Of a stretch of DNA of 64,000 nucleotides, positions 28,970 through 44,019 are shown piece by piece. The DNA comes from Streptomyces sp. H27-H5 (GTDB lineage: Bacteria; Actinomycetota; Actinomycetes; Streptomycetales; Streptomycetaceae), in the NCBI RefSeq assembly GCF_026627505.1, contig NZ_JAPNLK010000033.1:1-64000 (forward strand), in the 5' to 3' direction. The position numbers and the translations under genes were made by a program. Under the pieces are notes generated by a model. It searched no databases. It was not told where the DNA came from and saw only the letters and a list, made by a program, of their open reading frames with translations. Every line of letters starts with the position of its first letter. The stretch's first letter is position 1.

Positions 28970-29007
28970 GTCGGATCCGCGCGCGACACCGGTCGGATCC
29001 GCGCGCG
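28970..29007. repeat. 16-nt direct repeat, 22-nt period
   Basis: GTCGGATCCGCGCGCG occurs at 28970-28985 and again at 28992-29007. It is immediately followed by a small GGCGCC...GGCGCC hairpin. It could be a regulator-binding repeat for the DUF6328 gene or a duplication scar. Confidence 0.55.
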
Positions 29008-29047
29008 GCGCCCGTGTAGGGCGCCGTCGGGGGTCGCCGGGTGCGCG

Positions 29048-29083
29048 CGAGGGGCGGACACCGCGATCGGTGTCCGCCCCTCG
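29048..29083 (-). terminator. Perfect 16-bp hairpin
   Basis: Arms 29048-29063 and 29068-29083 are fully complementary around CGAT. It lies downstream of the DUF6131-like gene on the minus strand. Confidence 0.75.
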
Positions 29084-29192
29084 GCCGTGCGGTGGAACGA
29101 ACCACCGGCCCGGTGTGTGTGGTTGCCCGCGTACGGGCCGATGTGTGACGCCGTGAAGGACACCGCCTACCGGCGTCCGGTGGTTGCGTCGC

Positions 29193-29348
29193 CTAGTAGT
29201 AGTGCTTCCGTCCGCCCAGAGCGTGCCCCATGGCGCCCAGGATCCACAGGATCAGGCCTACGACGATGAGGATGATCCCGATGGTGTACAGGATGCTGAT
29301 GTGGGCCACGATCGCGACGATGAGCAGGATTACTCCGAGGATGATCAC
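29193..29348 (-). CDS. DUF6131-like two-helix membrane protein (51 aa)
   Basis: GTG 29348 is preceded by GGAGGG. The 51-residue product starts MIILGVILLIVAIVAHISIL, continues YTIGIILIVVGLILWILGAM and ends GHALGGRKHYY. Two hydrophobic helices and the His/Tyr-rich tail match the DUF6131 proteins common in Streptomyces, usually near stress-regulated genes. Its function is unknown. Confidence 0.8.
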   Translation of the reverse strand: MIILGVILLIVAIVAHISILYTIGIILIVVGLILWILGAMGHALGGRKHYY

Positions 29349-29424
29349 GGTGCCCTCCGATCTTCGCGTGATGATTCTTCACTGTGGGCCCGGTGGCCGC
29401 GTGGCTCCGGGGTGGGGGGACGGT

Positions 29425-29688
29425 TCAGTGTCCGAACAGGTGCCGCCTTCGAGGGACTCCTCCCGCGGGGCGGGACTCGTCGGTGGGCGGGGCTTGGGTG
29501 GTGGGGGCGTTGGCGGGGTCCGGGTCGGCCGGGGCCCGCGTGAGCGTGACGCCCGTCGCGGGATCCCGGTAACCGAGGACGTCGAATCCCTGTCCGATCC
29601 CTTGGCCGACCCCGGCGTTGCCGAGGACACCGGCGATCGCGACGACGACCGCGGCGATCAGAACGACCAGCCCGAGGGTGATCAGCAT
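29425..29688 (-). CDS. Small membrane protein, C-terminus possibly altered
   Basis: ATG 29688 with GGGAGG upstream gives MLITLGLVVLIAAVVVAIAG and VLGNAGVGQGIGQGFDVLGY. This start resembles a family of Streptomyces proteins that, as I recall, continue with a second transmembrane helix after the FGY motif. Here the remaining 45 residues are polar and proline-rich (ATGVTLTRAPADPDPANAPT) with no second helix. Either this is a one-helix variant or the 3' part was replaced by rearrangement. I found no simple frameshift that restores the helix. Confidence 0.58.
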   Translation of the reverse strand: MLITLGLVVLIAAVVVAIAGVLGNAGVGQGIGQGFDVLGYRDPATGVTLTRAPADPDPANAPTTQAPPTDESRPAGGVPRRRHLFGH

Positions 29689-29876
29689 GGCGCCCTCCCA
29701 GCGAATTCGTGCGCCGAAGGGGCGCACGGGGCAGCCTTCAACCACGCTCCTGCCCGTTTATCCGCTCTCCATACCGGACTGCGTTCATTGCCCCGAAACC
29801 CCCCGGAAAGGCAGCGTGCGGGAACCGGTGGCCCTTGGGGCGTGCCGGTGGGGTGCGGCCGGTCGTTGATGCTCCC

Positions 29877-30248
29877 GTGGAGCGCCGATTTCAGTTGAGT
29901 GACGAGGCCTGGACCGCGATCGAGACGCGGCTCGGCAGGCCCGCGGCCCGTGTGGAGCGCACGGCCGTCGAGGCCATCGTGTGGAAACTGTCGACGGGAG
30001 CCGCCTGGCGGGATCTACCCGCCCGGTACGGCCCCTGGCACAGCATGGCCGAGCGGTACCGGATCTGGGTCGGTGACGGCACTTGGGGCCGCATCGAGGC
30101 GGCACTGGTGTCCTCCCCCGCCGATCTGGTGGGCGAGGACGACTGGAGCACCCGATGGCTCCCCCGGCAGGCCGACACCGCACCCGCCGACGAGGCTTCG
30201 GGCCTCGCCGCCCGGACGGGGCCGGCCGGGGAGGCCGGGGCGCCGTGA
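29877..30248 (+). CDS. Orphan IS5-type transposase N-terminal domain (DUF4096-like)
   Basis: A 123-residue protein from GTG 29877. It contains only the DNA-binding helical domain found at the N-terminus of IS5-family transposases: RRFQLSDEAWTAIETRLGRP, AVEAIVWKLSTGAAWRDLPA and YGPWHSMAERYRIWVGDGTW. A DDE catalytic domain is absent; the tail is low-complexity (EASGLAARTGPAGEAGAP). It may be a transposase remnant or a domesticated DNA-binding protein. Two unusual hairpins follow, one containing a possible insertion-element end. Confidence 0.7.
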   Translation: MERRFQLSDEAWTAIETRLGRPAARVERTAVEAIVWKLSTGAAWRDLPARYGPWHSMAERYRIWVGDGTWGRIEAALVSSPADLVGEDDWSTRWLPRQADTAPADEASGLAARTGPAGEAGAP

Positions 30249-30356
30249 CCGGCCGGGAAGGGGGGACACCGCCCTCGACCCGAGGTGACCGGTTCCCGTC
30301 GACGCCGGTGACCACTTCGTCGATCGGTCGTTGAACCCGACGCTCGGCGAAACGAA

Positions 30357-30399
30357 CACCACGAGGTCCCGGAGCCCCCGCATCCGGGACCTCGTGGTG
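30357..30399. terminator. Perfect 16-bp hairpin
   Basis: Arms 30357-30372 and 30384-30399 (CACCACGAGGTCCCGG and its complement) enclose an 11-nt loop. It is about 110 nt after the transposase-domain gene and probably ends its transcript. Confidence 0.65.
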
Positions 30400-30432
30400 T
30401 CCCGGGCCGACCGGGGCACTCTGCGGGTCACG

Positions 30433-30488
30433 AGGTCGTCTCTTTCGGATCTTGCGGGGGCCGCGGCAAGATCCGAAAGAGACGGCCT
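30433..30488. repeat. 23-bp inverted repeat containing the duplicated 22-nt element
   Basis: Arms 30433-30455 and 30466-30488 pair with a single G-T mismatch across a 10-nt loop. The right arm carries AGATCCGAAAGAGACGGCCTAG, a near-copy of the single element at 18641-18662. The structure could end transcription of the minus-strand gene whose TAG stop it abuts. It also looks like two abutted ends of an insertion element. Confidence 0.65.
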
Positions 30489-30771
30489 AGGGCAGGCCCG
30501 CGGCCCGCCGACGCTCCAGCATCTCCCCGACCGACACCGTCGGCATGTGCCCGGCCAGCGCGACCGCGACCCGCGGGCCCCGGTCGGCGTCGGCGGCGAG
30601 CATCGCCCGGCCCCACCAGCGCAGCAGTACGCCCCTCGCCTCGTCGGGCGCGGCGAGCAGGAGTTCGGCGTGGAACTCCCGGCGGCACTCCCCCGACAGC
30701 GCCGCCGCGATGCCCTCGGCGTGCCGCGGGATCCGCCGCGGTCCGTGCGGGTGAACCGGTTGCGCGCTCAT
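30487..30771 (-). CDS. Hypothetical helical protein (94 aa)
   Basis: ATG 30771 gives MSAQPVHPHGPRRIPRHAEG. The rest, IAAALSGECRREFHAELLLA, PDEARGVLLRWWGRAMLAAD and GEMLERRRAAGLP, is helical and resembles the antitoxin-like DUF6247 group in a loose way. No toxin-like gene is adjacent. The TAG stop is part of the 22-nt repeated element. Confidence 0.6.
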   Translation of the reverse strand: MSAQPVHPHGPRRIPRHAEGIAAALSGECRREFHAELLLAAPDEARGVLLRWWGRAMLAADADRGPRVAVALAGHMPTVSVGEMLERRRAAGLP

Positions 30772-31263
30772 GGGACGTTCCCCTCGATCGACTGCTGCCC
30801 CGAGTCTGCCCCCTGGCGGGCCGTGAGGTCGAGCGTTCGCGCGCAAAGCCGGTCCGTGCGCCCGTTCGGATCGCGGCGGCGCCGTCCGTGTCGCCTCGGA
30901 CATGACAGCCGGTCAGCGGCGTCGTGACCGCGGGCCGGTCTCCCCGGGATGACGGGTCGCGAGGGCCGGGCCGCCGCCGCGTCCGCTCTCTCGGTCGCTC
31001 ACTCGCGGACGGGCAGCCGGCCCGGCCTCGTCGGTCATTCGGAGCCGCCCCACGAGGGGATTGGCCGGGTGACGGGTACGGCGACCCGGCCGGGACACGA
31101 GGACACCGTCCGCGCCCGCGCGCCCGGCTCCGTCCGGACCGTCCCTCGCGACCAGGCATTCATCCGTCGGCCACGAAATGTTTCTTACCGGCCAGTAGAC
31201 ATGGCGGCGACGCTCCCCAAGCATGGGCGCGTACATGCCAACGTGTGACGAGGAGCGTCCCCC
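30772..31263. other. Long intergenic region
   Basis: About 490 bp between divergent genes. Open frames here are GC-rich noise without ribosome-binding sites. A less GC-rich patch at 31165-31205 (GAAATGTTTCTTACCGG) is the most promoter-like part and lies upstream of the phosphatase gene. Confidence 0.4.
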
Positions 31264-31947
31264 ATGCGCAGCACCCGCCCCCGCACCACCCGCACCGCCA
31301 CCGCCGCCGCGGTGGCCGCCGCGGCCACCGTCCTGACCCTGCTTCCGGCCACCGCCGCGGACGCGGCCGACCGATCCGCGCCCACGTCCGCGCCCGCGGT
31401 CTCGGCCCCCGCCGCGTCCGCGCCCGGCGGCAACGCCGCGATCCTCGGCATCGACTACGCCACCTGGCAGCGGGACGTCGCCGACGTCATCGACGCGGCC
31501 CGCCCCGCCATCGAGCAGCGCATCGCCGCCTCGCCCGCCGGGGAGAAGCCCGCGCTCGTCCTCGACATCGACAACAGCTCGTTGGAGACGGACTTCCACT
31601 GGTTCTGGACCTTCCCCACTCCCGCGATCGGCAAGGTCCGTGACCTCACCCGGTACGCGAACGAGCGTGGGGTCGCCGTCTTCTTCGTGACCGCGCGCCC
31701 GGGGATCGTGTACTCCCTCACCGAACGCAACCTGAAGGCCGTCGGCTACCCGGTCTCGGGCCTGTACGTCCGGGACCTGCCGGACCTGTTCCACGAGGTC
31801 AGCACGTACAAGACGGGCAAGCGCGCCGAGATCGAGGCCCGCGGCTACACGATCATCGCCAACATCGGGAACAACGCGAGCGACCTCGTCGGCGGCCACG
31901 CCGAACGCACCGTGAAGCTGCCCGACTACGGCGGCAAGCTGTCCTGA
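31264..31947 (+). CDS. Secreted HAD-superfamily acid phosphatase
   Basis: A 227-residue protein from ATG 31264, which has GAGGAG upstream. A Sec signal peptide (TATAAAVAAAATVLTLLPAT, cleavage near ADA) leads to a HAD domain. Motif I is LVLDIDNSSLETD with the DxD nucleophile, motif II is FFVTARPG, and motif III/IV is TGKRAEIEARGYTIIANIGN. This matches class B/IIIB secreted acid phosphatases. It should hydrolyse phosphomonoesters outside the cell, supplying phosphate. Confidence 0.9.
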   Translation: MRSTRPRTTRTATAAAVAAAATVLTLLPATAADAADRSAPTSAPAVSAPAASAPGGNAAILGIDYATWQRDVADVIDAARPAIEQRIAASPAGEKPALVLDIDNSSLETDFHWFWTFPTPAIGKVRDLTRYANERGVAVFFVTARPGIVYSLTERNLKAVGYPVSGLYVRDLPDLFHEVSTYKTGKRAEIEARGYTIIANIGNNASDLVGGHAERTVKLPDYGGKLS

Positions 31948-32136
31948 CGCCGGCGGAGGCCGCGGCCGGGTGGCCGTCGTGTGCGACGCACGCCCACCCG
32001 CCCGCGGCCGAACCGCGTCCTTCGCGGCACAGGGCGGCGCCCGTCCGCCGAGTGGCGTGGATCACGGCAACGTATCGCGCGCGGGCGGCGACTTGGGGGT
32101 GTCAGGTCACCGCCCGAGGCAAGGAACGAAGCTCAC

Positions 32137-33513
32137 GTGCCCACTCCCTCCCACCGTCTTCCCCGTACGCGCCGCATCGCCGTCCTCGCCGGCGGCTCCG
32201 TCGCGGCGGCGTGCGTGCTCGGCGCCGTTCCGTTCGCGATGAGCGCCCAGGCCGCCCCCGATCTCGCGCACGCCGCGCTCCCCGCACACGACGGTTGGGC
32301 GGCCGACGGCAAGGGCACCACCGGCGGCTCGGCGGCCTCCGGCAGCCGCGTGTTCACCGTCTCCACGCGGGCCGAACTCGCCAAGGCGCTGACCACCGGG
32401 TCGGCGACGGCTCCGCGCGTCGTCCGGGTGAAGGGCGCCATCGACACGAACGTCGACGACTCCGGTCGCCCCCTCGGCTGCGACGACTACGCCCAGGGCA
32501 CGGGGTACTCGCTCGCCTCGTACCTGAAGGCCTACGACCCGGCGAACTGGGGCCGCTCGAAGGTGCCTTCCGGCGCCCAGGAGTCGGCGCGGGCCACCGC
32601 GCAGAAGCGGCAGGCGGCGCGGATGGTGCTCGACGTCCCGTCGAACACCACGATCGTCGGGGTCCCGGGTACCGGCGCCGGCCTGAAGGGCGGCAGCCTC
32701 CAGGTGAAGAAGGCGGACAACGTCATCATCCGCAACCTCGCCTTCTCCGACACCCGCGACTGCTTCCCCCAGTGGGACCCCACGGACGGTTCGACCGGCA
32801 ACTGGAACTCCGCCTACGACTCGCTGTCCCTGCGCGGTGCCACCCATGTGTGGGCCGATCACAACACGTTCACCGACAGCCCCGGCCTCGACGCCGCCAA
32901 CCCCCGCCGCTTCGGGCGCGAATACCAGGTCCACGACGGCGCCCTGGACATCACCAACGCCTCCGACCTGGTGACGGTGTCGTACAACCGGTTCTCCGAC
33001 CACGACAAGACGATGCTCATCGGCAGCAGCGACAACGACACCCGGCTGCGGGTCACCCTGCACCACAACGTCTTCCGGGGGATCGTGCAGCGGGCCCCGC
33101 TGGCCCGCGTCGGACAAGTGCACCTGTACAACAACCACTTCGACACGACCGAGCGCGACGGCTACGCCTTCGCCTACTCCATCAGCTCCCGGGCACGCGC
33201 CCAGGTGGTCGCCGAGTACAACAACTGGACGCTTCCCGGCGCCGGGAAGACCTCCCGGCTGCTGACCGGGGACGGAACGGGTGCGCTGGCCGGGTCCGGG
33301 AACCTGGTGAACGGGCGCGTGACCGACCTGGTGGCCGCGTACAACGCCGCGAACCCGAAGAAGATCCGGCCGACGGTGAACTGGCGGCCCGTGCTCTCCG
33401 CCGGCCTGGAGACGTCCGCGGCCGGCCTTCCCGCCTCGCTCGGCCGGACGGCCGGCGCCGGCGTGCTGACCGCCTCCGGGGCCCTCGCCCGTACCGACGT
33501 CCGGACCCCGTGA
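32137..33513 (+). CDS. Secreted pectate lyase (PL1)
   Basis: A 458-residue protein from GTG 32137, with AAGGA upstream. After a signal peptide (RIAVLAGGSVAAACVLGAVP) comes a right-handed beta-helix. PL1 landmarks are VWADHNTFTDS near residue 238 (the calcium-binding vWxDH motif) and RAPLARVGQVHLYNNHF near residue 319 (the catalytic RxPxxR). It cleaves polygalacturonate by beta-elimination with Ca2+. It is followed 17 nt later by an ECF sigma gene and that gene's membrane partner, suggesting regulation linked to the substrate. Confidence 0.96.
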   Translation: MPTPSHRLPRTRRIAVLAGGSVAAACVLGAVPFAMSAQAAPDLAHAALPAHDGWAADGKGTTGGSAASGSRVFTVSTRAELAKALTTGSATAPRVVRVKGAIDTNVDDSGRPLGCDDYAQGTGYSLASYLKAYDPANWGRSKVPSGAQESARATAQKRQAARMVLDVPSNTTIVGVPGTGAGLKGGSLQVKKADNVIIRNLAFSDTRDCFPQWDPTDGSTGNWNSAYDSLSLRGATHVWADHNTFTDSPGLDAANPRRFGREYQVHDGALDITNASDLVTVSYNRFSDHDKTMLIGSSDNDTRLRVTLHHNVFRGIVQRAPLARVGQVHLYNNHFDTTERDGYAFAYSISSRARAQVVAEYNNWTLPGAGKTSRLLTGDGTGALAGSGNLVNGRVTDLVAAYNAANPKKIRPTVNWRPVLSAGLETSAAGLPASLGRTAGAGVLTASGALARTDVRTP

Positions 33514-33530
33514 GCGGAGGTCCCCCGTCC

Positions 33531-34142
33531 ATGGCTGCTACCGTCACCCACCTGCCGCCCGCTGCCGGCACCGGCACATCGCACGGCACATCGCACGGAG
33601 GCCCCGGCTTGCTCCTCGTACACCACGACGCCTCCGCCGAGTTCCACGCCTTCTTCGAACAACACCACGCCGAACTCTCGCGGCTGGCCGCGATGCTCAT
33701 CGGTGAACCGGACGCCGCCGCCGACCTGGCCGCGGACGCCCTCGTCGCCGTATGGCACCGCTGGGACCGGGTGCGCGGCGCCGATCACCCCCTCGCGTAC
33801 GCCCGGGGCGTGGTGGCGAACTTGGCCCGTACCAGGATCCGTGCGGCCGTGCGCGAGCGGCGGCGGGTGAGTCTCTTCTGGTCGAACCGCCCCGAGGTGG
33901 TCGAGGCCGCGGACGTCGCCTCCGTCCTCGACGTACGAAGCGCCCTGGCCCGGCTGCCGTTTCGCAAACGGGCGTGTGTGGTCCTGCGCCACGCGCTCGA
34001 CCTGTCCGAGAAGGACACCGCGCTCGCCCTCGGGATATCCGTCGGCACGGTGAAGAGCCAGACTTCCAAGGGGATGGCGGAACTACAGAAGCTGCTCGGC
34101 ACGCGGGCCGCCGGCGAACTCACGGGAGGGAGGACCCGATGA
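33531..34142 (+). CDS. SigE-family ECF RNA polymerase sigma factor
   Basis: A 203-residue protein from ATG 33531, GGAGG 9 nt upstream. Region 2 is EFHAFFEQHHAELSRLAAML and AAADLAADALVAVWHRWDRV; region 4 is ALARLPFRKRACVVLRHALD and LALGISVGTVKSQTSKGMAE. This matches the actinobacterial SigE-type extracytoplasmic-function group, with an N-terminal extension of about 35 residues. Its stop overlaps the next gene's start as ATGA, so the two are coupled. The pectate lyase gene lies immediately upstream. Confidence 0.92.
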   Translation: MAATVTHLPPAAGTGTSHGTSHGGPGLLLVHHDASAEFHAFFEQHHAELSRLAAMLIGEPDAAADLAADALVAVWHRWDRVRGADHPLAYARGVVANLARTRIRAAVRERRRVSLFWSNRPEVVEAADVASVLDVRSALARLPFRKRACVVLRHALDLSEKDTALALGISVGTVKSQTSKGMAELQKLLGTRAAGELTGGRTR

Positions 34143-34798
34143 CCGACCTGCACGAGGAGTTGCGGGCCGCCGCACGGGCCCACGTACCGGACCGGGAGCG
34201 GATGCTCGCGCGCGTGGAACGGGGCATGGCCGACGCGCCGCCCCCCGCCGCCCGGCGGCAGGCCCTCTCCTGGCCCCGCGTCACCCTCGCCTCTCTCGCC
34301 GCCGGCGCGGCCCTGGTGGTCGGCGCCCACACCGTGGCGTCGGTGACGGGTGAAGAGGAGCGTGGCGCACGACAGGTGGTGTCGGCGCCCGACGGCGCCG
34401 GCACGCCGAGCACCGAGAGCGGGCCGCTGTGGTCCGACGGGTCCGTCGACCCGCACAGCAACACCTACTGGGCCCAGAGCAACATCACCCTCCAGACCCG
34501 GGAGCCGCTCACCGCGTTCAGCCTGGAGGTCCGCATCGCACAGACGGGCGGCGTGGCCACCACCGGCACCTGGCAGACCCTGCCGGCCGGCGACTTCGAC
34601 GTCGTGGCCCGGGAGTCCGGCGGCGCCCTGGTCTACCGGTGGACCCTCAAGGCCGGCAGAACGGTGCCGGCGGGCCGCCATGTCTTCGCCGCCCAGTACA
34701 ACCACGCCGAGGGCGGCCGGGACGCCGGGAAGGACACGTACGCGTCGACGGCCACCGCAGCCGGGGGCGCGGCGCACGAGGTCGGAGGGGGCTTCTGA
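34139..34798 (+). CDS. Membrane protein coupled to the ECF sigma factor, putative anti-sigma/sensor
   Basis: A 219-residue protein from ATG 34139. The cytoplasmic part is MTDLHEELRAAARAHVPDRE and MLARVERGMADAPPP, the short helical pattern seen in partners of SigE-type factors. One transmembrane helix follows (LASLAAGAALVVGAHTVASV). The outer part of about 145 residues is beta-rich: ITLQTREPLTAFSLEVRIAQ, GTWQTLPAGDFDVVARESGG and YRWTLKAGRTVPAGRHVFAA, reminiscent of carbohydrate-binding modules. No zinc-binding HxxxCxxC anti-sigma motif is present. The role as sensor and anti-sigma factor is inferred from coupling and layout. Confidence 0.78.
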   Translation: MTDLHEELRAAARAHVPDRERMLARVERGMADAPPPAARRQALSWPRVTLASLAAGAALVVGAHTVASVTGEEERGARQVVSAPDGAGTPSTESGPLWSDGSVDPHSNTYWAQSNITLQTREPLTAFSLEVRIAQTGGVATTGTWQTLPAGDFDVVARESGGALVYRWTLKAGRTVPAGRHVFAAQYNHAEGGRDAGKDTYASTATAAGGAAHEVGGGF

Positions 34799-34835
34799 CC
34801 GGTGGTCGACCCGCGGTGCGCGCTACGGTCGGGCC

Positions 34836-35300
34836 ATGGCCACCAGAATCGATCTGACGCTTGACTGTGCCGATGCCCGGCCGCTCGCCGCCTTCTGGAA
34901 GACGGCACTGGGCTACGTCGACGAGCCGCCACCCGCCCCCTTCGCCACGCGCGAGGAGTGGGCCGCCCACTTCGATCCCCCGGAGGACGGCGCGGACGCG
35001 CACGACCCGGACGCGGCCGACCCCGCGGGCGGCGGGGCGTGGCTCTGCGATCCGGACGGCGTCGGCCCCCGTCTCTCGATCCTGAGGGTTCCGGAACCCA
35101 AGCGGGCGAAGAATCGCCTGCACATGGACATCCGGGTGCCGGGGCACGGCGGTCCGGCCGAGCGGTGAGAACGGATCGGGGCGGAGTCCCGTCGTCTGGT
35201 GGTGGCGGGCGGGCGGGTCGTGGCGGAGTTCGAGGGGCACCACGTGGTGATGGCGGATCCGGAGGGCAACGAGTTCTGCGTGGCCGCCGCCCCCGCGTGA
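34836..35300 (+). pseudogene. VOC/glyoxalase-like protein interrupted by an in-frame TGA
   Basis: The frame starts at ATG 34836 (MATRIDLTLDCADARPLAAF) and reads WKTALGYVDEPPPAPFATRE, then GPRLSILRVPEPKRAKNRLH and MDIRVPGHGGPAER. TGA at 35166-35168 stops it. The same frame continues without a break as ERIGAESRRLVVAGGRVVAE, HHVVMADPEGNEFCVAAAPA to TGA 35300. In related proteins the interrupted site reads ERWxRI, so TGA replaces a tryptophan TGG. The whole would be 154 residues, the normal size. As written, translation gives a 110-residue fragment lacking the last beta strands and their metal ligand. Confidence 0.78.
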
Positions 35301-35722
35301 GGCGCCGGCAGGGCGTTCGGGGATTCGGTGACCGCCCCCCGTTCGGTCGGTCGCGGCGCGGTCCCGCACCCTCGCGTAGGGGCTCGCCCGCCACCGGGCG
35401 TCACGACGAGCACGCTGCGTAGTGCGACGCATGCGATGGTTCGAGCGGGTTCGCTCCGCTTTGTGGAGCGCACAGGTGGCCTGCCACGGGCCGATGTCCG
35501 CGAACGCGGTCCCGGCAGGCGGTGTCCCCACGGCCGGACGGTCGTTGAGAAGAACGGTCAGCGAAGTGGACCACGCCGAGTCCCGGGGCCTGGGCCCCGG
35601 GACTCGGCGCTTCCTGAACCGCCGGCCCGGACAAGGGCGTTGACGGGGAAGCAAAGGGCCGGCCCGGGCCCGTGTCCCGAAGGCGGTCCGAACCAGGGGC
35701 CCGGCCGCGACGTGTGCTGCGT
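35301..35722. other. Intergenic region with a strong hairpin
   Basis: About 420 bp. A small frame at 35422-35643 exists but lacks protein character. The hairpin at 35574-35609 is the main feature. The rest shows nothing I can name. Confidence 0.4.
35574..35609. terminator. Perfect 17-bp hairpin
   Basis: Arms 35574-35590 and 35593-35609 are complementary with a 2-nt gap, effectively a 4- to 6-nt loop. It lies 270 nt downstream of the glyoxalase-like gene and upstream of the DoxX gene. Confidence 0.65.
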
Positions 35723-36232
35723 GTGAACACGACATCCTCCGGTCCGCGGTCCGCCGCCACGCGGCACGCGCTCCTGCCCCTGCGCCTCTTCCTCGGCATC
35801 ACGTTCGTGTACGCCGGCGTCGACAAACTCCTCGACCCGGCGTTCCTCTCCGCCACCGGTGACGGCTCGATCGGCCAACAGCTCGAAGGGGTGAAGGGGT
35901 CGGCCGCGATCCCGGCACTGGTGGCGGTCGCCCTGAACGACCCGGGTGGCTTCGGCCTGGCGATGGCCCTCGGCGAGACCGCCGTCGGGCTGGGGGTCCT
36001 GGCCGGCCTGCTGACCCGGATCGCGGCCCTCGGGGGCGCACTGATCTCGCTCAGCCTCTGGCTGACCGTCAGTTGGCAGGCCACCCCGTACTACTACGGA
36101 AACGACCTGGCCTACCTGATGGCCTGGACCCCGCTGGTCCTCGCGGGCGCACCGACCTTGTCCCTCGACGCGGCGCTGCGCCGGCGGCGCGCCACCCCCC
36201 GGGGCCGGCGGCGCGTCAACCGCCGAGAGTGA
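35723..36232 (+). CDS. DoxX-family membrane protein
   Basis: A 169-residue protein from GTG 35723 (MNTTSSGPRSAATRHALLPL); GTG 35714 is an alternative and neither has a strong ribosome-binding site. The family signature is LRLFLGITFVYAGVDKLLDP at residues 19-38. Three further helices follow (GFGLAMALGETAVGLGVLAG, LISLSLWLTVSWQATPYYYG, AYLMAWTPLVLAGA). DoxX proteins occur in redox and sulfur-stress complexes; the role here is unknown. Its 3' end overlaps the convergent ligase gene by 17 nt. Confidence 0.87.
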   Translation: MNTTSSGPRSAATRHALLPLRLFLGITFVYAGVDKLLDPAFLSATGDGSIGQQLEGVKGSAAIPALVAVALNDPGGFGLAMALGETAVGLGVLAGLLTRIAALGGALISLSLWLTVSWQATPYYYGNDLAYLMAWTPLVLAGAPTLSLDAALRRRRATPRGRRRVNRRE

Positions 36233-37325
36233 GGCGGGCGCACCGGGTGACCACGGCGGCGAGGTCCCCCTCGTCGCGCAGGAGGGCGCGCTGCACCCGG
36301 GCCCCGGTGCCCCGCTCCTGGAGTTCCACCAGGCCGGCCCGGACCCGTTCGGCGTCCCCGTTCTCCTCCAGGGCGTCCCGTACGTGCTCGTACAACGCCC
36401 ACACGACATCCTCGGGAGAGGTCTCCGCCAGTGTGACCGGATGGATCAGGGGCCCGTCGAGCCCGGATCGGGCCGCCCGCCACGCCGCCAGCCGGAGCAG
36501 GGCGGTGTCGACCTGGGACGGGGGCTCTCCGGCCTGCCAGGCCCGGGAGGCCGTGTCCACCAGCCCGCGGGTCAGTGCGGCGAGCAGTACGGGCGTCCCC
36601 GCGTCCAGGCAGACGTCCGCCACCCGGATCTCCACCGTGGGGTAGGACGCGGCCAGCCGAGCGTCGAAGTAGATCATGCCCTCGTCGCGGAGGGCGCCGG
36701 TCGCGAGCATGGCCCGGACCCGCTCGTGGTAGCGGTCGGCGGAGCCGAAGACGCTCACCGGGCCGGCCGAGGGCCACCGGTTCCAGACCCTGCTGCGATA
36801 GCTCCCGTAGCCGGTGTCCTCTCCCTGCCAGAAGGGTGAGTTCGCGCTCAGGGCGGTCAGGACGGACAGCCAGGGGCGAATCCGGTCCAGGACCGCCACG
36901 CCCTCCTCGTCGGAGTCCACCGACACGTGAACGTGGCAGCCGCAGGTCAGCTGCTCCTGCGCCGTCAGGCCGAACTGCCGGCCGATCCACTGGTACCGCT
37001 CCCCCCTACTCAGTGAGGGCTCCACCCGGGTCGGGCAGGTGGCGAGAGCGGCGACGACCATGCCCGCGGCCTCGGCGTGCCGGGCGGCCTCGGCGCGCCA
37101 GCGCAGGATCTCCTCGCCGAGCTCGCCCATCATCGTCACCGGTTTGGTCGCGAATTCGACCTGTTGCTTGTGGAGTTCCTTCTCCAGCGGGATCTCGCCG
37201 TCGGCTCCCGCCGCGCGGCCCCCCGTCCGGATCGCGGAGGCCAGCACCGCGCCGGCGGACGCGGCGGGTTCACCGGTCCGCGGATCGACGAGCAGCAGTT
37301 CTTCCTCGACACCGACACTGCGCAT
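36216..37325 (-). CDS. YbdK-type carboxylate-amine ligase (glutamate-cysteine ligase 2 family)
   Basis: A 369-residue protein from ATG 37325. It opens MRSVGVEEELLLVDPRTGEP with the GVEEE(F/L) signature. EKELHKQQVEFATKPVTMMG, LTCGCHVHVSVDSDEEGVAV and YPTVEIRVADVCLDAGTPVL are the ATP-grasp-like glutamine-synthetase-fold motifs. E. coli YbdK has weak glutamate-cysteine ligase activity. Streptomyces use mycothiol rather than glutathione, so the true substrate is uncertain. It is divergent from GlsB/YeaQ. Confidence 0.93.
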   Translation of the reverse strand: MRSVGVEEELLLVDPRTGEPAASAGAVLASAIRTGGRAAGADGEIPLEKELHKQQVEFATKPVTMMGELGEEILRWRAEAARHAEAAGMVVAALATCPTRVEPSLSRGERYQWIGRQFGLTAQEQLTCGCHVHVSVDSDEEGVAVLDRIRPWLSVLTALSANSPFWQGEDTGYGSYRSRVWNRWPSAGPVSVFGSADRYHERVRAMLATGALRDEGMIYFDARLAASYPTVEIRVADVCLDAGTPVLLAALTRGLVDTASRAWQAGEPPSQVDTALLRLAAWRAARSGLDGPLIHPVTLAETSPEDVVWALYEHVRDALEENGDAERVRAGLVELQERGTGARVQRALLRDEGDLAAVVTRCARLTLGG

Positions 37326-37500
37326 ACGGTCCCTTTCGCCGGCTCCTGGTCCGACGTCTGCCCACTTCCCCGGTGGGCACGCGTCCCGGGCGGGCCTGCG
37401 GCCCTCTCCTTTCGCCGGGCATTTCGCCCGGGTTTGAATTCCTCCGCAGGGAGCATTCGGCGAACGTAGGAAATTCATCGGAGCCCGGAGAGGCAACACC

Positions 37501-37767
37501 ATGGGAATCATCGCCTGGATCATCATCGGACTGCTTGCGGGAATGATCGCGAAAGCGCTCATGCCCGGCAGGGATCCCGGCGGTTTCTTCGTCACCATCC
37601 TGATCGGCATCGCCGGTGGTCTCCTCGGCGGCTGGCTGGGGAAGGTGCTGTTCGGGGTCGACTCGATCGACGGCTTCTTCGACCTCTCGACCTGGATCGC
37701 GGCCGTCGTCGGCTCGATGATCCTGCTGCTCGTCTACCGCCTCGTCACGGGCGGCCGACGACGCTGA
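37501..37767 (+). CDS. GlsB/YeaQ/YmgE-family membrane stress protein
   Basis: An 88-residue protein from ATG 37501. Its three helices carry the family's Gly-rich pattern: MGIIAWIIIGLLAGMIAKAL, GGFFVTILIGIAGGLLGGWL and WIAAVVGSMILLLVYRLVTG. Members are general-stress or envelope proteins, often under sigma-B-type control. A hemerythrin gene follows 59 nt downstream on the same strand, suggesting one stress operon. Confidence 0.94.
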   Translation: MGIIAWIIIGLLAGMIAKALMPGRDPGGFFVTILIGIAGGLLGGWLGKVLFGVDSIDGFFDLSTWIAAVVGSMILLLVYRLVTGGRRR

Positions 37768-37826
37768 CCTGCGGCCCTGGGCCGCGAGAACCACGCCGGG
37801 CACGACAGAACAGGCAGGAGCACGCC

Positions 37827-38333
37827 ATGACGGCGAATGACGATGTAGTCGCTGTGATCCTGAAGGACCACCGCACCATGGAGGAACTGTTTCGCCGCAT
37901 GCGGAGCGTGGAGGCCGACCGCGCCGAGGCGTTGAAGAAGTTCTCCGCGCTGCTCATCGCGCACGCCGAGGCCGAGGAGTCCGAGGTGTACGGCGCGCTG
38001 AAGCGGTTCAAGAACGTGGACGACGAGGAAGTGGAACACGGGGCCGAGGAGCACACCGAGGGCAACGAGGCGTTGCTGGCCCTCCTGGAGGTCGCCGACG
38101 TCGGCTCCGAGGAGTGGGACGAGCGCCTCGAAGACCTGTCGAAGGCGGTGTCGCACCACATCGACGAGGAGGAACGGACGATCCTCAACGGTGCCAGGGA
38201 GAACGTCCCGGACGAACGCCGGGCCGAGCTGGGCGTCGCGTTCCTGCGCGAGCGGGAGAAGCACCTGGCGGCCGACTGCGGCAGCATCGAGAACGTACGA
38301 GCCGTCCTGCACGCCCACGGTGAGGACCGATGA
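37827..38333 (+). CDS. Hemerythrin-domain protein
   Basis: A 168-residue helical protein from ATG 37827. Likely diiron ligands are in VILKDHRTMEELF, LLIAHAEAEESEVY, HTEGNEALLAL and SHHIDEEERTIL, the H...HxxxE...H...HxxxE spacing of hemerythrins. Such proteins bind oxygen or sense redox and oxidative stress. The C-terminal extension of about 35 residues is helical. Its stop overlaps the next gene as ATGA. Confidence 0.93.
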   Translation: MTANDDVVAVILKDHRTMEELFRRMRSVEADRAEALKKFSALLIAHAEAEESEVYGALKRFKNVDDEEVEHGAEEHTEGNEALLALLEVADVGSEEWDERLEDLSKAVSHHIDEEERTILNGARENVPDERRAELGVAFLREREKHLAADCGSIENVRAVLHAHGEDR

Positions 38334-40523: not shown

Positions 40524-41075
40524 TCAGCCGTGCGTGTCCGCCTGGAGAGGGACACCGTCGAGAAGGGGCGCGGCGGGGGCCGAGGTGGTCGGCAGCGTGC
40601 TCGGCGCCGGGGCCGGCGCGGGCAGACCGGTCGTCAGGCGCACCACGTCGACCTCGGCCCAGACCACCTTGCCGTGGTCATGGGCCTGGGCGTCCCAACG
40701 GTCCGAGAGCCGCCGCACTATGTACAGGCCGTGGCCTCCCGGCGTCGCTCCCTGCTGCCGGGGACGGGGGCGCGGCAGTTCGGTCTCCCCGTCGAAGACC
40801 TCGATGCGCAGGACGTCGCCGGCGGCCGCGATCACGAACTCCTGGCAACCGCCGGCGTGCATGACGGCGTTGGTCAGCAGCTCCGACACGATGAGCAGGA
40901 CGTCCTCGGCGGTCTCGTGACCGTCCCATCCCCAGTCACGCAGGGCTTCCCGGGTGAAATCTCGTCCCTTGGCGACCTGGCCGCGGGTCCCGCTCAGCGC
41001 GAGGCGCCGACGCTGGGTCACGGCCTTGATGTCCGCGCGCAGCGGATCGCCGGTCTCCGGTCCGATGGGCGTCAC
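40524..41075 (-). CDS. Anti-sigma-type ATP-binding protein (HATPase)
   Basis: A 183-residue protein from GTG 41075, with a GGGGGTGA site upstream. The HATPase core has the N box LIVSELLTNAVMHAGGCQEF, the Asp box IEVFDGETELPRPRP and the G box GGHGLYIVRRLSDRWD. A proline-rich tail of about 35 residues follows. It belongs to the large Streptomyces RsbW-like group that controls sigma factors or phosphorylates STAS partners. A STAS gene lies 200 nt upstream on the same strand, the obvious candidate partner. Confidence 0.9.
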   Translation of the reverse strand: MTPIGPETGDPLRADIKAVTQRRRLALSGTRGQVAKGRDFTREALRDWGWDGHETAEDVLLIVSELLTNAVMHAGGCQEFVIAAAGDVLRIEVFDGETELPRPRPRQQGATPGGHGLYIVRRLSDRWDAQAHDHGKVVWAEVDVVRLTTGLPAPAPAPSTLPTTSAPAAPLLDGVPLQADTHG

Positions 41076-41272
41076 TGTGGTCTCACCCCCTGGGGCACTG
41101 GTCTTGTCGTTGATGTCGTACTCCTGCCGTCCTGGCCCGGTAAAAGTCCGGATCGACCGTTTCGGTGTCCCAGACCCCGCGCATACCCGCCCTGTCCTCT
41201 TGAACACCTCGGATGCGGGTGCCGGTCCCCCTCCTGGGAGGAGTCACGGCAGGTGCGAGGCGGTGTCGGGGC

Positions 41273-41674
41273 TCATCCCGCAGCGAGGGCGTCCGGCACG
41301 GTGCGGCTGATGGTGAAGACGCCGTCCGCGCCGGTGAGCTGGAGGAGTCTCGACAACTGGTCGGTGGGCGCCGCCAGTCGCAGCGCGATGCCCTCCCGTT
41401 CGGTGTCGAGCCTCAGGCTCAGCAGCAGGTTGAGGCCCGAGGAGTCGCAGAATCCGACTCCCGAGAGGTCGATCACCAGTCGGGACGGGCCCGACCCGAT
41501 CGCCTCGTCCAGGACGGGCTGGACGGATCCCAGGCTGTCGAGGTCGAGGTCTCCGGAGAGCGCGCACACCACGGCGTCCGGCTCGCTGTGCCGGAGTTCG
41601 GCCCGCCGCGGCTCGGCCGTCTCGTTGTCGGCGCGGGGCGGCACGTCACTGTCCCCTAGGTCGCGAGTTCCCAC
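41273..41674 (-). CDS. STAS-domain anti-sigma factor antagonist
   Basis: A 133-residue protein. I chose GTG 41674 (GGAAGG 5 nt upstream); GTG 41644 with AGGGGA is nearly as good and would remove 10 residues. The STAS core is AVVCALSGDLDLDSLGSVQP, then SRLVIDLSGVGFCDSSGLNL with the phosphorylatable Ser in DSSG. Such proteins free a sigma factor from its anti-sigma kinase when dephosphorylated. Neighbours on both sides encode HATPases, which fits a partner-switching set. Confidence 0.88.
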   Translation of the reverse strand: MGTRDLGDSDVPPRADNETAEPRRAELRHSEPDAVVCALSGDLDLDSLGSVQPVLDEAIGSGPSRLVIDLSGVGFCDSSGLNLLLSLRLDTEREGIALRLAAPTDQLSRLLQLTGADGVFTISRTVPDALAAG

Positions 41675-41756
41675 GTCAGCCTTCCGATGCACTGTCTTTT
41701 CCGTTGCGCGTGTTCGCGTCTGAACTCTACAGCCGGTTCGTCACTCTTGGTCGTGC

Positions 41757-42719
41757 TCATGACCGCCGGTTGATCGTCATGTGGAGGCGCAGGGTGAGTC
41801 CCGTGTCCAGGGCCCTGACCTCGACGAGGTCGCACAACTGGTGGATCATCCACAGGCCGCGGCCCCCGTTGCCGGAGGCCAGGGCGGGGCGGGAGCGGCC
41901 GGCGAGCGGGTCGCGGAGGCGGCCGTCGTCGCTGACCTCGGCGACCACGTCGCCCGCGGGTGTGGTCCACAGGCGCAGCCGTCCCTTCCCGCCACCGTGG
42001 GCGACCGAGTTGGCGGCCGCCTCGCTGACGGCGAGGACCAGGTCGTCGCGCCGTCCCGCGTCGAGCGCCGTCCGTCGGGCCCAGGATTCGGCGTGCTCGC
42101 GCACGTCGGCGAGCCGGCCCGCCGCGTAGTCGACGAGGACGGCCTCGGCAGCGGGTTCGGTCAGCGGGACGTCGCAGTCCGCGCAGACGACGGCGGCGTC
42201 CGTGTAGGCGGGGCTGGCGAGTTCCCGGCCGGACTCGATCAGGGTGGGGTGGGTGCGCCGGGCGTCGGCGATCACCTCGGGGGCCAGCGCGCCCGTGTCG
42301 TACGGGCACAGGATGGTCGCGGACCGGTGTGCGAAGGCGGTGTTGATGAGCGCCTCGTGGCGGGTGGCCTCCAGGACCTCGGCCCGGGAACGGCCCGGCC
42401 AGATCGGCTCGCCCACGATCCGCGCGGTGCGCCCCGGGTGTCGGTCGGCGAACCCCTGGAGGGCGGCGAGGATGCGTCCGGGGTTGCGGCCCAGCTCCGT
42501 CATGTCCACGCCGTCGATGTGGTCGGCGTCGGAGCCCAGGTACCGGCGCAGCGCTTCCAGGCTCGGGCCGGGGACGGCGACGAGGACGGGCTCGTCGGCG
42601 GCGAGGGCCGTGCGGACGAAGTCGCCGACGCCGGCCGTGTATTCCTCGGGGTCCCGGTAGAAGAGGGCCGGGTGGACGAAGGCTCCGGGGGCGGTTGCCG
42701 GGGAGGCCGTGTCGATCAT
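41757..42719 (-). CDS. MEDS-domain sensor with anti-sigma HATPase domain
   Basis: A 320-residue protein from ATG 42719. Residues 15-180 form a MEDS domain (HPALFYRDPEEYTAGVGDFV, LVAVPGPSLEALRRYLGSDA, RIVGEPIWPGRSRAEVLEAT). The C-terminal HATPase has LVLAVSEAAANSVAHGGGKG and GNGGRGLWMIHQLCDLVEVR. MEDS domains are found in sensors of methanogen and actinomycete regulators. A small ORF upstream overlaps its start as ATGA. It likely responds to a metabolite and passes the signal to the STAS protein 83 nt downstream. Confidence 0.91.
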   Translation of the reverse strand: MIDTASPATAPGAFVHPALFYRDPEEYTAGVGDFVRTALAADEPVLVAVPGPSLEALRRYLGSDADHIDGVDMTELGRNPGRILAALQGFADRHPGRTARIVGEPIWPGRSRAEVLEATRHEALINTAFAHRSATILCPYDTGALAPEVIADARRTHPTLIESGRELASPAYTDAAVVCADCDVPLTEPAAEAVLVDYAAGRLADVREHAESWARRTALDAGRRDDLVLAVSEAAANSVAHGGGKGRLRLWTTPAGDVVAEVSDDGRLRDPLAGRSRPALASGNGGRGLWMIHQLCDLVEVRALDTGLTLRLHMTINRRS

Positions 42720-42970
42720 GAGGTGACCTCACGGGCGTCGAGGTCTCCGCCGCCGGCGAATCGTATGCCCGGTCGGTCGCGCGGGGGTACGGCGCCCAGC
42801 GGCGTTCCCGACGTTCGCGGCCGGCCCACGCGGCGCACCACGGTCTCGGCCCGTGTCGCGTCGTCCTCGTACGGGAGGAACGCGTGCTCGCCGGCGGCGC
42901 CGGGTGAGCAGGGCCGGCGGGGGTGGGGTGAAGGCACGCTCTTCCCTCGTAGGCGGGACGAAATCGACAT
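42716..42970 (-). CDS. Possible small protein (84 aa) coupled to the MEDS gene
   Basis: ATG 42970 gives MSISSRLRGKSVPSPHPRRP and the frame runs to a TGA that overlaps the MEDS gene's ATG. The overlap is the main support. Composition is basic and low in hydrophobic residues (DDATRAETVVRRVGRPRTSG), and I recognise no domain. It may be real or a chance frame. Confidence 0.35.
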   Translation of the reverse strand: MSISSRLRGKSVPSPHPRRPCSPGAAGEHAFLPYEDDATRAETVVRRVGRPRTSGTPLGAVPPRDRPGIRFAGGGDLDAREVTS

Positions 42971-43054
42971 CGGCTGGCGCAAGGATTCTACCGGCGCCGC
43001 AGGCCCCCGGTCGCGGGTCCGTCGAACCGGGTCGGGCCTGCCGGACACGCGGAA

Positions 43055-43090
43055 GGGCGGCACCGCCGGAAGGGTCCGGAGGTGCCGCCC
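43055..43090 (-). terminator. 10-bp hairpin after the sigma factor gene
   Basis: GGGCGGCACC at 43055-43064 pairs with GGTGCCGCCC at 43081-43090 around a 16-nt loop that could itself fold. It begins 11 nt past the sigma gene's stop on the minus strand. Confidence 0.6.
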
Positions 43091-43101
43091 GCAGGACGGG
43101 T

Positions 43102-44019
43102 TCAGGCGGCGAGCATGCCGCTCCGCAGCTGGGTGAGGATCCGCGTCAGGAGGCGGGAGACCTGCATCTGGGAGATGCCGAGTTCGGCGCCGATCTCGGC
43201 CTGGGTCTTCTCCTGGCCGAAGCGCATCCGCAGGATCAGACGGTCGCGCTCTTGCAGCCGGCCGAGCAGCGGGGCGAGGGTGTGCATCTCCTCGAAGAGC
43301 TCCACGGCCGGGTCGGCCTCGCCCATGCTCTCGGCGAGCGGACGGGTTTTGCGGCCGCTCGTCGCCGCTTCGTCGGAGTCGGCGGAGGCGTCCAGGGAGC
43401 CACTGGTGTAGCCGTTGGCGGCCACCAGTCCCTCGATGACCTCCTCCTCGCCGAGTTCCAGGTGCTCGGCGATCTCCTTGACCGTCGGCGCCCGGCCGAG
43501 CACGTCCGTCAGCTCTTCCTGGCTCTTCGCGAGTTCCGTCCGCAGTTCCTGGAGCCGGCGGGGTACGTGCACGGCCCACGTCGTGTCGCGGAAGTAGCGC
43601 TTGATCTCGCCGGTGATGTAGGGGAGGGCGAGGGTGGAGAACTCGACCTCCCGGTCCGGGTCGAAGCGGTCGATCGCCTTGATCAGGCCGATGGTGCCCA
43701 CCTGGACGATGTCCTCCATCTCGACACCGCCGCCGCTCGCCCGACCGCGGAAGCGTCGGGCGGCGAAGTGGACGAGGGAGATGTTCATCTCGATGAGGGT
43801 GTTGCGCGCGTACTGGTACTCGCGCGTCCCCTCCTCCAGGGTCCGCAGCCGGGTCAGGAACAGGCGCGACAGTGCGCGCGCGTCACCGGGGGCCACCTCG
43901 CGGGCGTTGGCCACGGGGGGCAGTTCCGTGAAGGACTCCCCCGCCTGGAATCCGGTCGGGGGAACGACCTCGGCGGCTGTCTCACGTACGGGGCTGACGA
44001 CTGCGACAGAGCGAGGCAT
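43102..44019 (-). CDS. SigB/SigF/SigG-family RNA polymerase sigma factor
   Basis: A 305-residue group 3 sigma factor from ATG 44019. Region 2 is NISLVHFAARRFRGRASGGG and VEMEDIVQVGTIGLIKAIDR, then FDPDREVEFSTLALPYITGE. Region 3 is VHVPRRLQELRTELAKSQEE, and region 4 is DRLILRMRFGQEKTQAEIGA with GISQMQVSRLLTRI. This is the stress and sporulation sigma family of Streptomyces (SigB, F, G and others); the exact paralogue cannot be set by eye. It is flanked by anti-sigma and STAS genes and is divergent from the poly-HAMP kinase. Confidence 0.96.
   Translation of the reverse strand: MPRSVAVVSPVRETAAEVVPPTGFQAGESFTELPPVANAREVAPGDARALSRLFLTRLRTLEEGTREYQYARNTLIEMNISLVHFAARRFRGRASGGGVEMEDIVQVGTIGLIKAIDRFDPDREVEFSTLALPYITGEIKRYFRDTTWAVHVPRRLQELRTELAKSQEELTDVLGRAPTVKEIAEHLELGEEEVIEGLVAANGYTSGSLDASADSDEAATSGRKTRPLAESMGEADPAVELFEEMHTLAPLLGRLQERDRLILRMRFGQEKTQAEIGAELGISQMQVSRLLTRILTQLRSGMLAA

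Follow-up and report, generated by a model that had tools for sequence, protein, structure and literature searches.

A candidate sigma/anti-sigma pair and promoter code linked to pectin breakdown in Streptomyces

A 64,000-nt stretch of the Streptomyces sp. H27-H5 genome (assembly GCF_026627505.1, contig NZ_JAPNLK010000033.1, positions 1–64,000; hereafter, the window) carries an operon that encodes a PL1 pectate lyase (PEL), a SigE-family extracytoplasmic function (ECF) sigma factor (SIG), and a partner protein with one transmembrane helix (MEM). We propose, at a probability of about two in three, that SIG and MEM form a sigma/anti-sigma pair dedicated to pectin breakdown, which would read a motif found before pectinase genes and, in the window, act with positive feedback. 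The proposal is carried by sequence evidence, comprising the operon itself, its conserved linkage to pectin genes, a common promoter-like motif, unlinked genes preceded by this motif, and the co-occurrence of motif and MEM across genomes.

A pectate lyase, sigma factor, and membrane protein in one operon

The three genes are open reading frames on the forward strand, with a 17-nt gap between PEL and SIG and an ATGA overlap between SIG and MEM, and constitute one operon. This arrangement, described in an earlier note made from the sequence alone (hereafter, the original prediction), was confirmed, as was its reading of a pectate lyase followed by an ECF sigma factor. PEL matches Pfam Pectate_lyase_4 above the cut-off (E 1.1e-42) and aligns over nearly its full length with the Bacillus pectate lyase 1bn8 (E 7e-115), the Bacillus enzymes being the closest among solved structures; by domain and structure match it is a PL1 pectate lyase. 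It retains the DGxxD, DHDK, and QRAP segments of the solved Bacillus enzyme, which we take to be functionally relevant marks of PL1 pectate lyases, and its N-terminus is signal-peptide-like as judged by eye. SIG (203 aa) belongs to the SigE family (NCBIfam TIGR02983: 164.1 bits; cut-off: 141.55 bits) and contains the Pfam domains Sigma70_r2 and r4_2.

Conserved linkage of SIG-MEM to pectin genes

The locus survey used MEM as its sole query and therefore involved no selection for pectin genes. Among named genomes it returned 502 MEM relatives; we retained the 80 best loci, of which 79 bear the title Streptomyces and one '[Kitasatospora] papulosa', and scored neighborhoods of up to about 10 kb on each side of MEM with probe families assigned by Pfam. 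A SIG match was present in 78 of the 80 named loci and a PL1, PL3, PL9, CE8, PL4, or PL26 gene in 66. Such pectin genes were absent from all 20 control loci, chosen around sigma genes of the SigE family other than SIG (Fisher: 2.6e-12). These controls (20 kb each) were picked, not at random, from rows above the TIGR02983 cut-off in four genomes (G004, G009, G013, and G019), all of which have pectin genes near their SIG-MEM loci (L031, L036, L040, and L045). Proximity to pectin genes is a conserved and specific property of SIG-MEM rather than a product of local chance. A lack of conserved linkage, one half of what the original prediction named as its refutation, is ruled out, and the motif described below ties the pair to unlinked pectinase genes as well. 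Of 61 genomes (own genome included), 30 contain a MEM relative, as do 116 of the 198 genomes of the genus in which 15 candidates per genome were scored. Among 37 genomes of the genus, 18 contain both MEM and a PF00544 lyase, four MEM only, three the lyase only, and 12 neither (p-value 0.0005).

The gene in front of the pair varies. A PL1 gene directly precedes SIG-MEM in the window and four other loci (L068, L080, L090, and L146; with a GH12 gene ahead of it in L068), PL9 is the front gene in four (L073, L099, L119, and L145), a divergent PL3 gene lies beside the pair in three (L071, L075, and L084), and a DPBB-domain protein stands in front in two (L128 and L138). L126 and L133 resemble the DPBB form in layout and have front genes without a Pfam assignment; L116 has the motif and a PL1 match, with no SIG match. 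In a tree of 78 SIG-MEM rows (window included), the window belongs to a supported clade whose 16 rows show different front-gene forms, and the PL1 form needs three label changes, at least two of them forced by well-supported branches. Because the forms mix within the clade and the PL1 form requires several changes, we conclude that it is the front gene that was exchanged, often for another pectinase. One further MEM relative (L037, G025:C1 around 7013451–7014159) has no detected SIG, is apparently split over two frames with the motif in front, and is possibly a decaying copy.

A promoter-like motif shared by unrelated pectinase families

The motif takes the form CGGCAACC-TT...GGyGGCRAC; it is not palindromic, and its core, AAC-N17-CRAC, has ECF-like geometry. 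Sigma-E promoters are described as AAC, 17 or 18 bases, and CGTC (PMC6767563), so that the geometry is alike whereas the -10 element differs. A two-block word search upstream of gene classes in the 80 loci returned CAACC-N16-CGAC (context CGGCAACC-N14-GGCGAC), which lies before 37/45 PL3 genes and about 10/29 PL9 genes, with 1/212 in background upstreams; the strict pattern was found upstream of 36/45 PL3 and 9/29 PL9 genes. A weight matrix trained on PL3 promoters of other species gave 76 matches of at least 14 bits, distributed over 59 of the 80 loci. The reversed sequences of these loci gave none, and 400 kb of control loci gave none at 12 bits or more.

The genes behind the 76 matches were 39 PL3 (the training class), 11 PL9, five PL1, three PL4, one CE8, five SIG, and eight others, with four matches lacking a predicted gene. 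The five before SIG derive from two loci, four of them being overlapping repeats in L070 (9226–9323, spaced by 21 nt). The eight other genes are the GH12 gene of the PL1-SIG-MEM operon in L068, a PL11 gene (L083), a PL1 gene (L090), two DPBB genes (L128 and L138), two lectin proteins (L128 and L133), and the L133 front gene. Outside the training class there were 37 matches, of which 23 precede pectin-acting genes or the GH12-PL1-SIG-MEM operon and five precede SIG; the median distance from a match to the start codon was 98.5 nt. The motif precedes the unrelated pectinase families PL1, PL3, PL4, PL9, PL11, and CE8 as well as the PEL-SIG-MEM operon.

The pattern CGGCAACNNNTYNNNNNNSGGYGGCRAC has three exact matches in the window's own 9.13-Mb assembly and none in its reverse. 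One lies at 32065 before PEL-SIG-MEM, one (C22:52392) before an unlinked gene for a fused pectate lyase-pectinesterase (PL1-CE8), and one (C328:4854) before a ricin-lectin/BNR gene beside a second SIG-MEM pair; a one-mismatch site (C328:1951) is upstream of a DPBB-cluster gene and the SIG of that second pair. This pair (L066, G000:C328:1-10000) lies behind the DPBB-cluster gene, and its MEM is cut by the contig end. Over 61 genomes, the pattern matched 32 places forward, of which 30 were examined (two were without a locus). In 16 of these 30 places, a gene follows at the expected position (one of them, L187, was also flagged as overlapping a frame), and 13 of the 16 are pectin genes: five PL1-CE8 fusions, four PL3, one CE8, one PL11, one PL4, and PEL of the window (four fusions were Pfam-scanned and L204 was called by its PF00544 match; PL3 was assigned by cluster). 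The remaining three are one DPBB gene, one DUF4037 gene at a distance of 286 nt, and one MEM without SIG. Two further places (L181 and L198) were flagged as coding, with a gene 240–300 nt on. Matches in the MEM-negative genomes G002, G030, G042, and G043 (six loci) were discounted as lying inside coding frames; such matches occur in some MEM-positive genomes too. A shorter pattern, GGCAAC-N17-CGAC, was rejected as unspecific (135 matches in the own assembly vs. 56 reversed), and its matches, among those listed, resemble Gly-Asn...Asp codons.

Across 198 genomes of the genus, a stricter form of the motif (one mismatch allowed) tracks MEM: 97 genomes have both, 19 MEM only, five the motif only, and 77 neither (Fisher: 3.9e-30, a value that, like the other Fisher value, ignores shared ancestry).

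Architecture and conservation of MEM

The original prediction gave MEM a short cytoplasmic helix, one transmembrane helix, and a beta-rich outer domain without the usual zinc anti-sigma motif. All of this held except for the single helix: an AlphaFold2 model places two helices (residues 2–14 and 16–31) in the short N-terminal part and is beta-rich from about residue 91, with the middle part, including the transmembrane stretch (residues 48–66), poorly predicted. The motif of zinc anti-sigma (ZAS) proteins is HxxxCxxC, and MEM lacks it because the protein contains no cysteine at all. Positions of these parts are given in Table 1.

Modeled alone, the ectodomain reached a mean pLDDT of 96.3 and a pTM of 0.90. 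It is the best conserved part of the protein, with a mean column identity of 66% vs. 46% for the entire MEM in 50 aligned sequences, among which Trp111, Gln113, Trp145, Trp168, and His189 are invariant. This set consists of the window and 49 of the 80 named loci (L084 and L116 were without a clear start and others were dropped as near-duplicates by eye); an earlier alignment comprised the window and 26 of 37 extended loci, excluding fragments and unclear starts. The nearest named relative (69% identity) is from Streptomyces sp. G-G2.

Searches with MEM matched no Pfam family up to E 0.1, and a Pfam scan of the 50 sequences up to the same value matched seven families, none of them consistently. 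The NCBIfam 'anti-sigma factor' model matched weakly (E 0.0024 over residues 8–90), far below its cut-off. Gene order, the overlap with SIG, and this match suggest that MEM would bind and restrain SIG as an anti-sigma factor. Neither MEM itself nor a MEM profile yielded a useful match in sequence searches of PDB. Structure matches to the modeled ectodomain (Foldseek, VIA-align) were many tied beta-sandwiches, including staphylococcal and pilin adhesin domains, cohesins, and AP2 mu; because the adhesin, pilin, and cohesin chains tie (Z 10.5–11.9), no fold family is named. CBM2 chains 3ndy_E and 6qfs_A appear among many other Foldseek matches (target TM score 0.56–0.58), and hhalign against a small CBM2 profile (nine sequences) gave a probability of 2.4% over 11 columns. 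The outer domain had been called sugar-binding-like; the model bears out a beta-sandwich and singles out no sugar-binding family, so a sugar-binding-like domain is possible.

Relatives of the ectodomain also occur in other protein contexts. L058 (7838–8737, +) encodes a protein with one transmembrane helix and the MEM ectodomain, without a matching anti-sigma N-terminus and without SIG, next to a long gene that is beta-helix/AAA-like by eye. In L063 (7274–8437, +) and L065 (7490–8671, -), a segment resembling sigma region 2 is fused to a transmembrane helix and an ectodomain relative; region 4 was not seen in these fusion proteins by the SIG search.

Table 1 Features of the PEL-SIG-MEM region in window coordinates
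Feature	Position	Strand	Basis
HAD IIIB acid phosphatase gene, possible accessory gene	31264-31947	+	Pfam Acid_phosphat_B; upstream of operon
Predicted SIG-dependent promoter, CGGCAAC-N17-CGAC, 44 nt before PEL start codon	32065-32092	+	Pattern and matrix
PEL, pectate lyase family PL1, first operon gene	32137-33513	+	Open frame, Pfam, PDB match
SIG, ECF sigma factor, SigE family	33531-34142	+	Open frame, TIGR02983 over cut-off
MEM, partner with one transmembrane helix, proposed anti-sigma factor and sensor	34139-34798	+	Open frame; start inside SIG stop codon (ATGA)
MEM residues 1-31, two cytoplasmic helices, proposed minimal anti-sigma domain, conserved HxPDR..(M/I)LAR	34139-34231	+	Alignment, model, weak NCBIfam anti-sigma match
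MEM transmembrane helix, residues 48-66, basic residues before (N-in by that sign)	34280-34336	+	Hydropathy scan
MEM ectodomain, residues 91-219, nine-strand beta-sandwich	34409-34795	+	AlphaFold2 and conservation

Comparison with known systems

SigI is a separate sigma family, and Pfam contains an RsgI model. The 25 best of 78 NCBIfam rows for SIG include no SigI model; MEM matched no RsgI family in Pfam or NCBIfam up to E 1, nor was one among the seven Pfam families of the 50 MEM sequences up to E 0.1. The resemblance to clostridial SigI/RsgI noted in the original prediction is therefore one of logic only, and SIG-MEM does not belong to that family. Overall, the original interpretation is partly supported. 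SigI3/RsgI3 of Clostridium thermocellum provides the nearest working model: the outer PA14 domains of RsgI3 are described as binding pectin, with SigI3 activating the pl11 and ce12 promoters (PMC4711584), and RsgI signaling as ending in proteolysis by RseP and ClpXP (PMC12203970). Both systems have a sigma gene followed by a membrane-spanning anti-sigma factor (proposed, for MEM) with an outer domain, and both are linked to pectin genes. They differ in that RsgI3 has PA14 repeats and binds pectin, whereas SIG-MEM has an ECF SigE-family sigma factor, an N-terminus of about 30 residues without an RsgI match, and a single beta-sandwich with putative pectin binding.

The ECF52 and ECF53 proteins (e.g., SCO4117) resemble SIG-MEM in that actinobacterial ECF control is linked through a transmembrane segment to an outer carbohydrate-type domain (PMC5826349, PMC8999054, PMC10766802). 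Both groups carry sigma factor, zinc finger, transmembrane segment, and outer domain in one chain, the outer domain of ECF52 proteins being described as a carbohydrate module (PMC5826349, PMC8999054), whereas SIG-MEM is split over two genes without a zinc motif (SIG has no extension beyond its 203 aa, and MEM is separate and cysteine-free). In a 2024 review, the predicted carbohydrate domains of ECF52/53 are said to await experimental validation (PMC10766802). The Bacteroides ECF/anti-sigma glycan systems, in which the ECF sigma factor is released when glycan is sensed outside, are Gram-negative and often regulate outer-membrane transporters; they are likened to SIG-MEM by description only (PMC10766802).

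The layout also recurs among our own controls. In 8 of the 20 (L237-L240, L244, L245, L250, and L251), the protein encoded after the SigE-family sigma gene has a short N-terminus with a basic end and a single transmembrane helix between residues 42 and 74, and the layout is therefore of a wider kind. These controls differ from SIG-MEM in that they lack both the motif and neighboring genes of the probed pectin families; what is new in SIG-MEM is the proposed pectin regulon and promoter code. A literature search, with most subscription papers and all preprints outside its scope, found no report of an ECF sigma factor controlling pectin genes in Streptomyces or of the SIG-MEM pair.

Proposed mechanism and alternative explanations

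In the proposed mechanism, the short cytoplasmic helices of MEM would tether SIG to the membrane while the ectodomain meets the putative signal outside the cell, namely pectin itself, a fragment of it, or a pectin-linked surface. A shape change or proteolysis may then release SIG, which with RNA polymerase would read the CGGCAACC-TT...GGyGGC(G/A)AC promoters of pectinase genes, as co-occurrence and operon structure suggest. At least one unlinked gene, that of the fused pectate lyase-pectinesterase, has the same promoter form and would be co-activated. Since PEL, SIG, and MEM stand behind one such promoter, activation would raise lyase and regulator together. A broader generalization falls somewhat short of even odds in our judgment: SIG-MEM may represent a Streptomyces family of polysaccharide-sensing ECF modules separate in origin from clostridial SigI/RsgI, in which the conserved beta-sandwich ectodomain on a minimal anti-sigma factor would read pectin, and other plant-wall polymers in relatives with DPBB, lectin, or GH62 neighbors, with the promoter code CGGCAAC-N17-CRAC linking unlinked plant-wall enzyme genes across the genus.

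Several observations weigh against control of pectinase genes by SIG-MEM. No scored pectin gene was found in 14 of the 80 named loci, and many genes of pectin clusters lack the strict pattern upstream (CE8: 0/45, GH43: 0/22, PL1: 2/49, PL4: 1/8), as does SIG itself (1/77 with the pattern); because the motif is rare there, the proposed feedback would be special to operons like that of the window. Reversed sequences yielded four matches to CGGCAACNNNTYNNNNNNSGGYGGCRAC over 61 genomes and three to the stricter form, 12 of the 30 examined places fall within coding frames without a following gene start, 19 of the 116 MEM genomes lack the motif and five with the motif have no detected MEM, and shared ancestry is left out of the Fisher values. 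The ectodomain fold is confidently predicted but generic. Lastly, the window site is a weaker variant, with GTATC in place of the CCTTT of most sites. No other site in the window reaches its matrix score of 16.0, although the complemented window, used as control, has a site with nearly the same score (15.9); in simulated 64-kb strands, 2 of 100 reached 12 and none 16. The same variant heads the homologous operon in L068, the nearest relative, and we credit the window site because of this, its distance of 44 nt from the start codon, and its rarity in the genome.

SIG-MEM could be a true pair controlling pectinase genes in which MEM, instead of sensing pectin, responds to the state of the wall or envelope, a partner protein, or proteolysis, and substrate specificity is supplied by different regulators, for instance the cluster's IclR gene. 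We regard this as unlikely, yet the strongest of the alternatives: the ectodomain lies near adhesin, pilin, and cohesin domains and also occurs on the SIG-less membrane protein of L058, a penicillin-binding protein (PBP) gene and an IclR gene are frequent neighbors (49/80 and 51/80 named loci), and some MEM relatives are accompanied by DPBB, lectin, or GH62 genes instead of pectinases, whereas the high conservation of the ectodomain with its invariant Trp residues and the swapping of the front gene between pectinase families speak for sensing of the substrate. Six genomes hold 46 sigma genes above the TIGR02983 cut-off, SIG genes included (161 matches, weaker or stronger, in all), and therefore another sigma factor could read the motif. 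That this or another regulator does so, with SIG-MEM merely carried in the regulon, is improbable in our view; the scarcity of the motif before SIG and the five genomes with the motif and no detected MEM (only 15 candidates scored per genome) would fit it, but the motif is non-palindromic with ECF spacing and tracks MEM over 198 genomes. Least probable is that the pair sits by chance in a conserved chromosomal region with pectin genes. In the largest clade, a single syntenic block does account for much of the linkage, but the window-type clade spans different loci and front genes, the motif stands at unlinked pectinase genes, and none of the 20 controls has pectin genes. A dedicated sigma/anti-sigma pair for pectin breakdown remains the reading that we prefer.

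Neighboring genes and other observations

A PBP gene (probe L042:4399-5850) is a steady neighbor of the SIG-MEM pair. We presume SCO1876 of S. coelicolor to be a candidate orthologue, based on gene order and on SCO1875 being a class B PBP rather than on a sequence comparison. SCO1875 is described as a class B PBP and sigma-E target (PMC6767563), and the passages of two papers that name SCO1876 merely list it (PMC3902916, PMC2631018).

The acid phosphatase upstream of the operon clusters with acid phosphatase genes of related loci and is present in 10 of the 80 named loci. Slightly further upstream lies an IS4/5-type transposase fragment (DUF4096; 29709–30248, +), and at 40524–43914 (-) there is a sigma factor with regions 2–4 and two nearby HATPase_c_2 proteins, of which one carries a MEDS sensor domain. 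An Rfam scan of 29000–38000 matched no RNA family.

Implications for pectin digestion in Streptomyces

Streptomyces matters both for the turnover of soil carbon and for association with plants. For this genus, in which the pair is common as judged by the distribution of MEM, SIG-MEM and its motif provide a candidate switch, sensor, and promoter code for the digestion of pectin. With one promoter sequence and one small, confidently modeled ectodomain, the putative pectin digestion program becomes testable.

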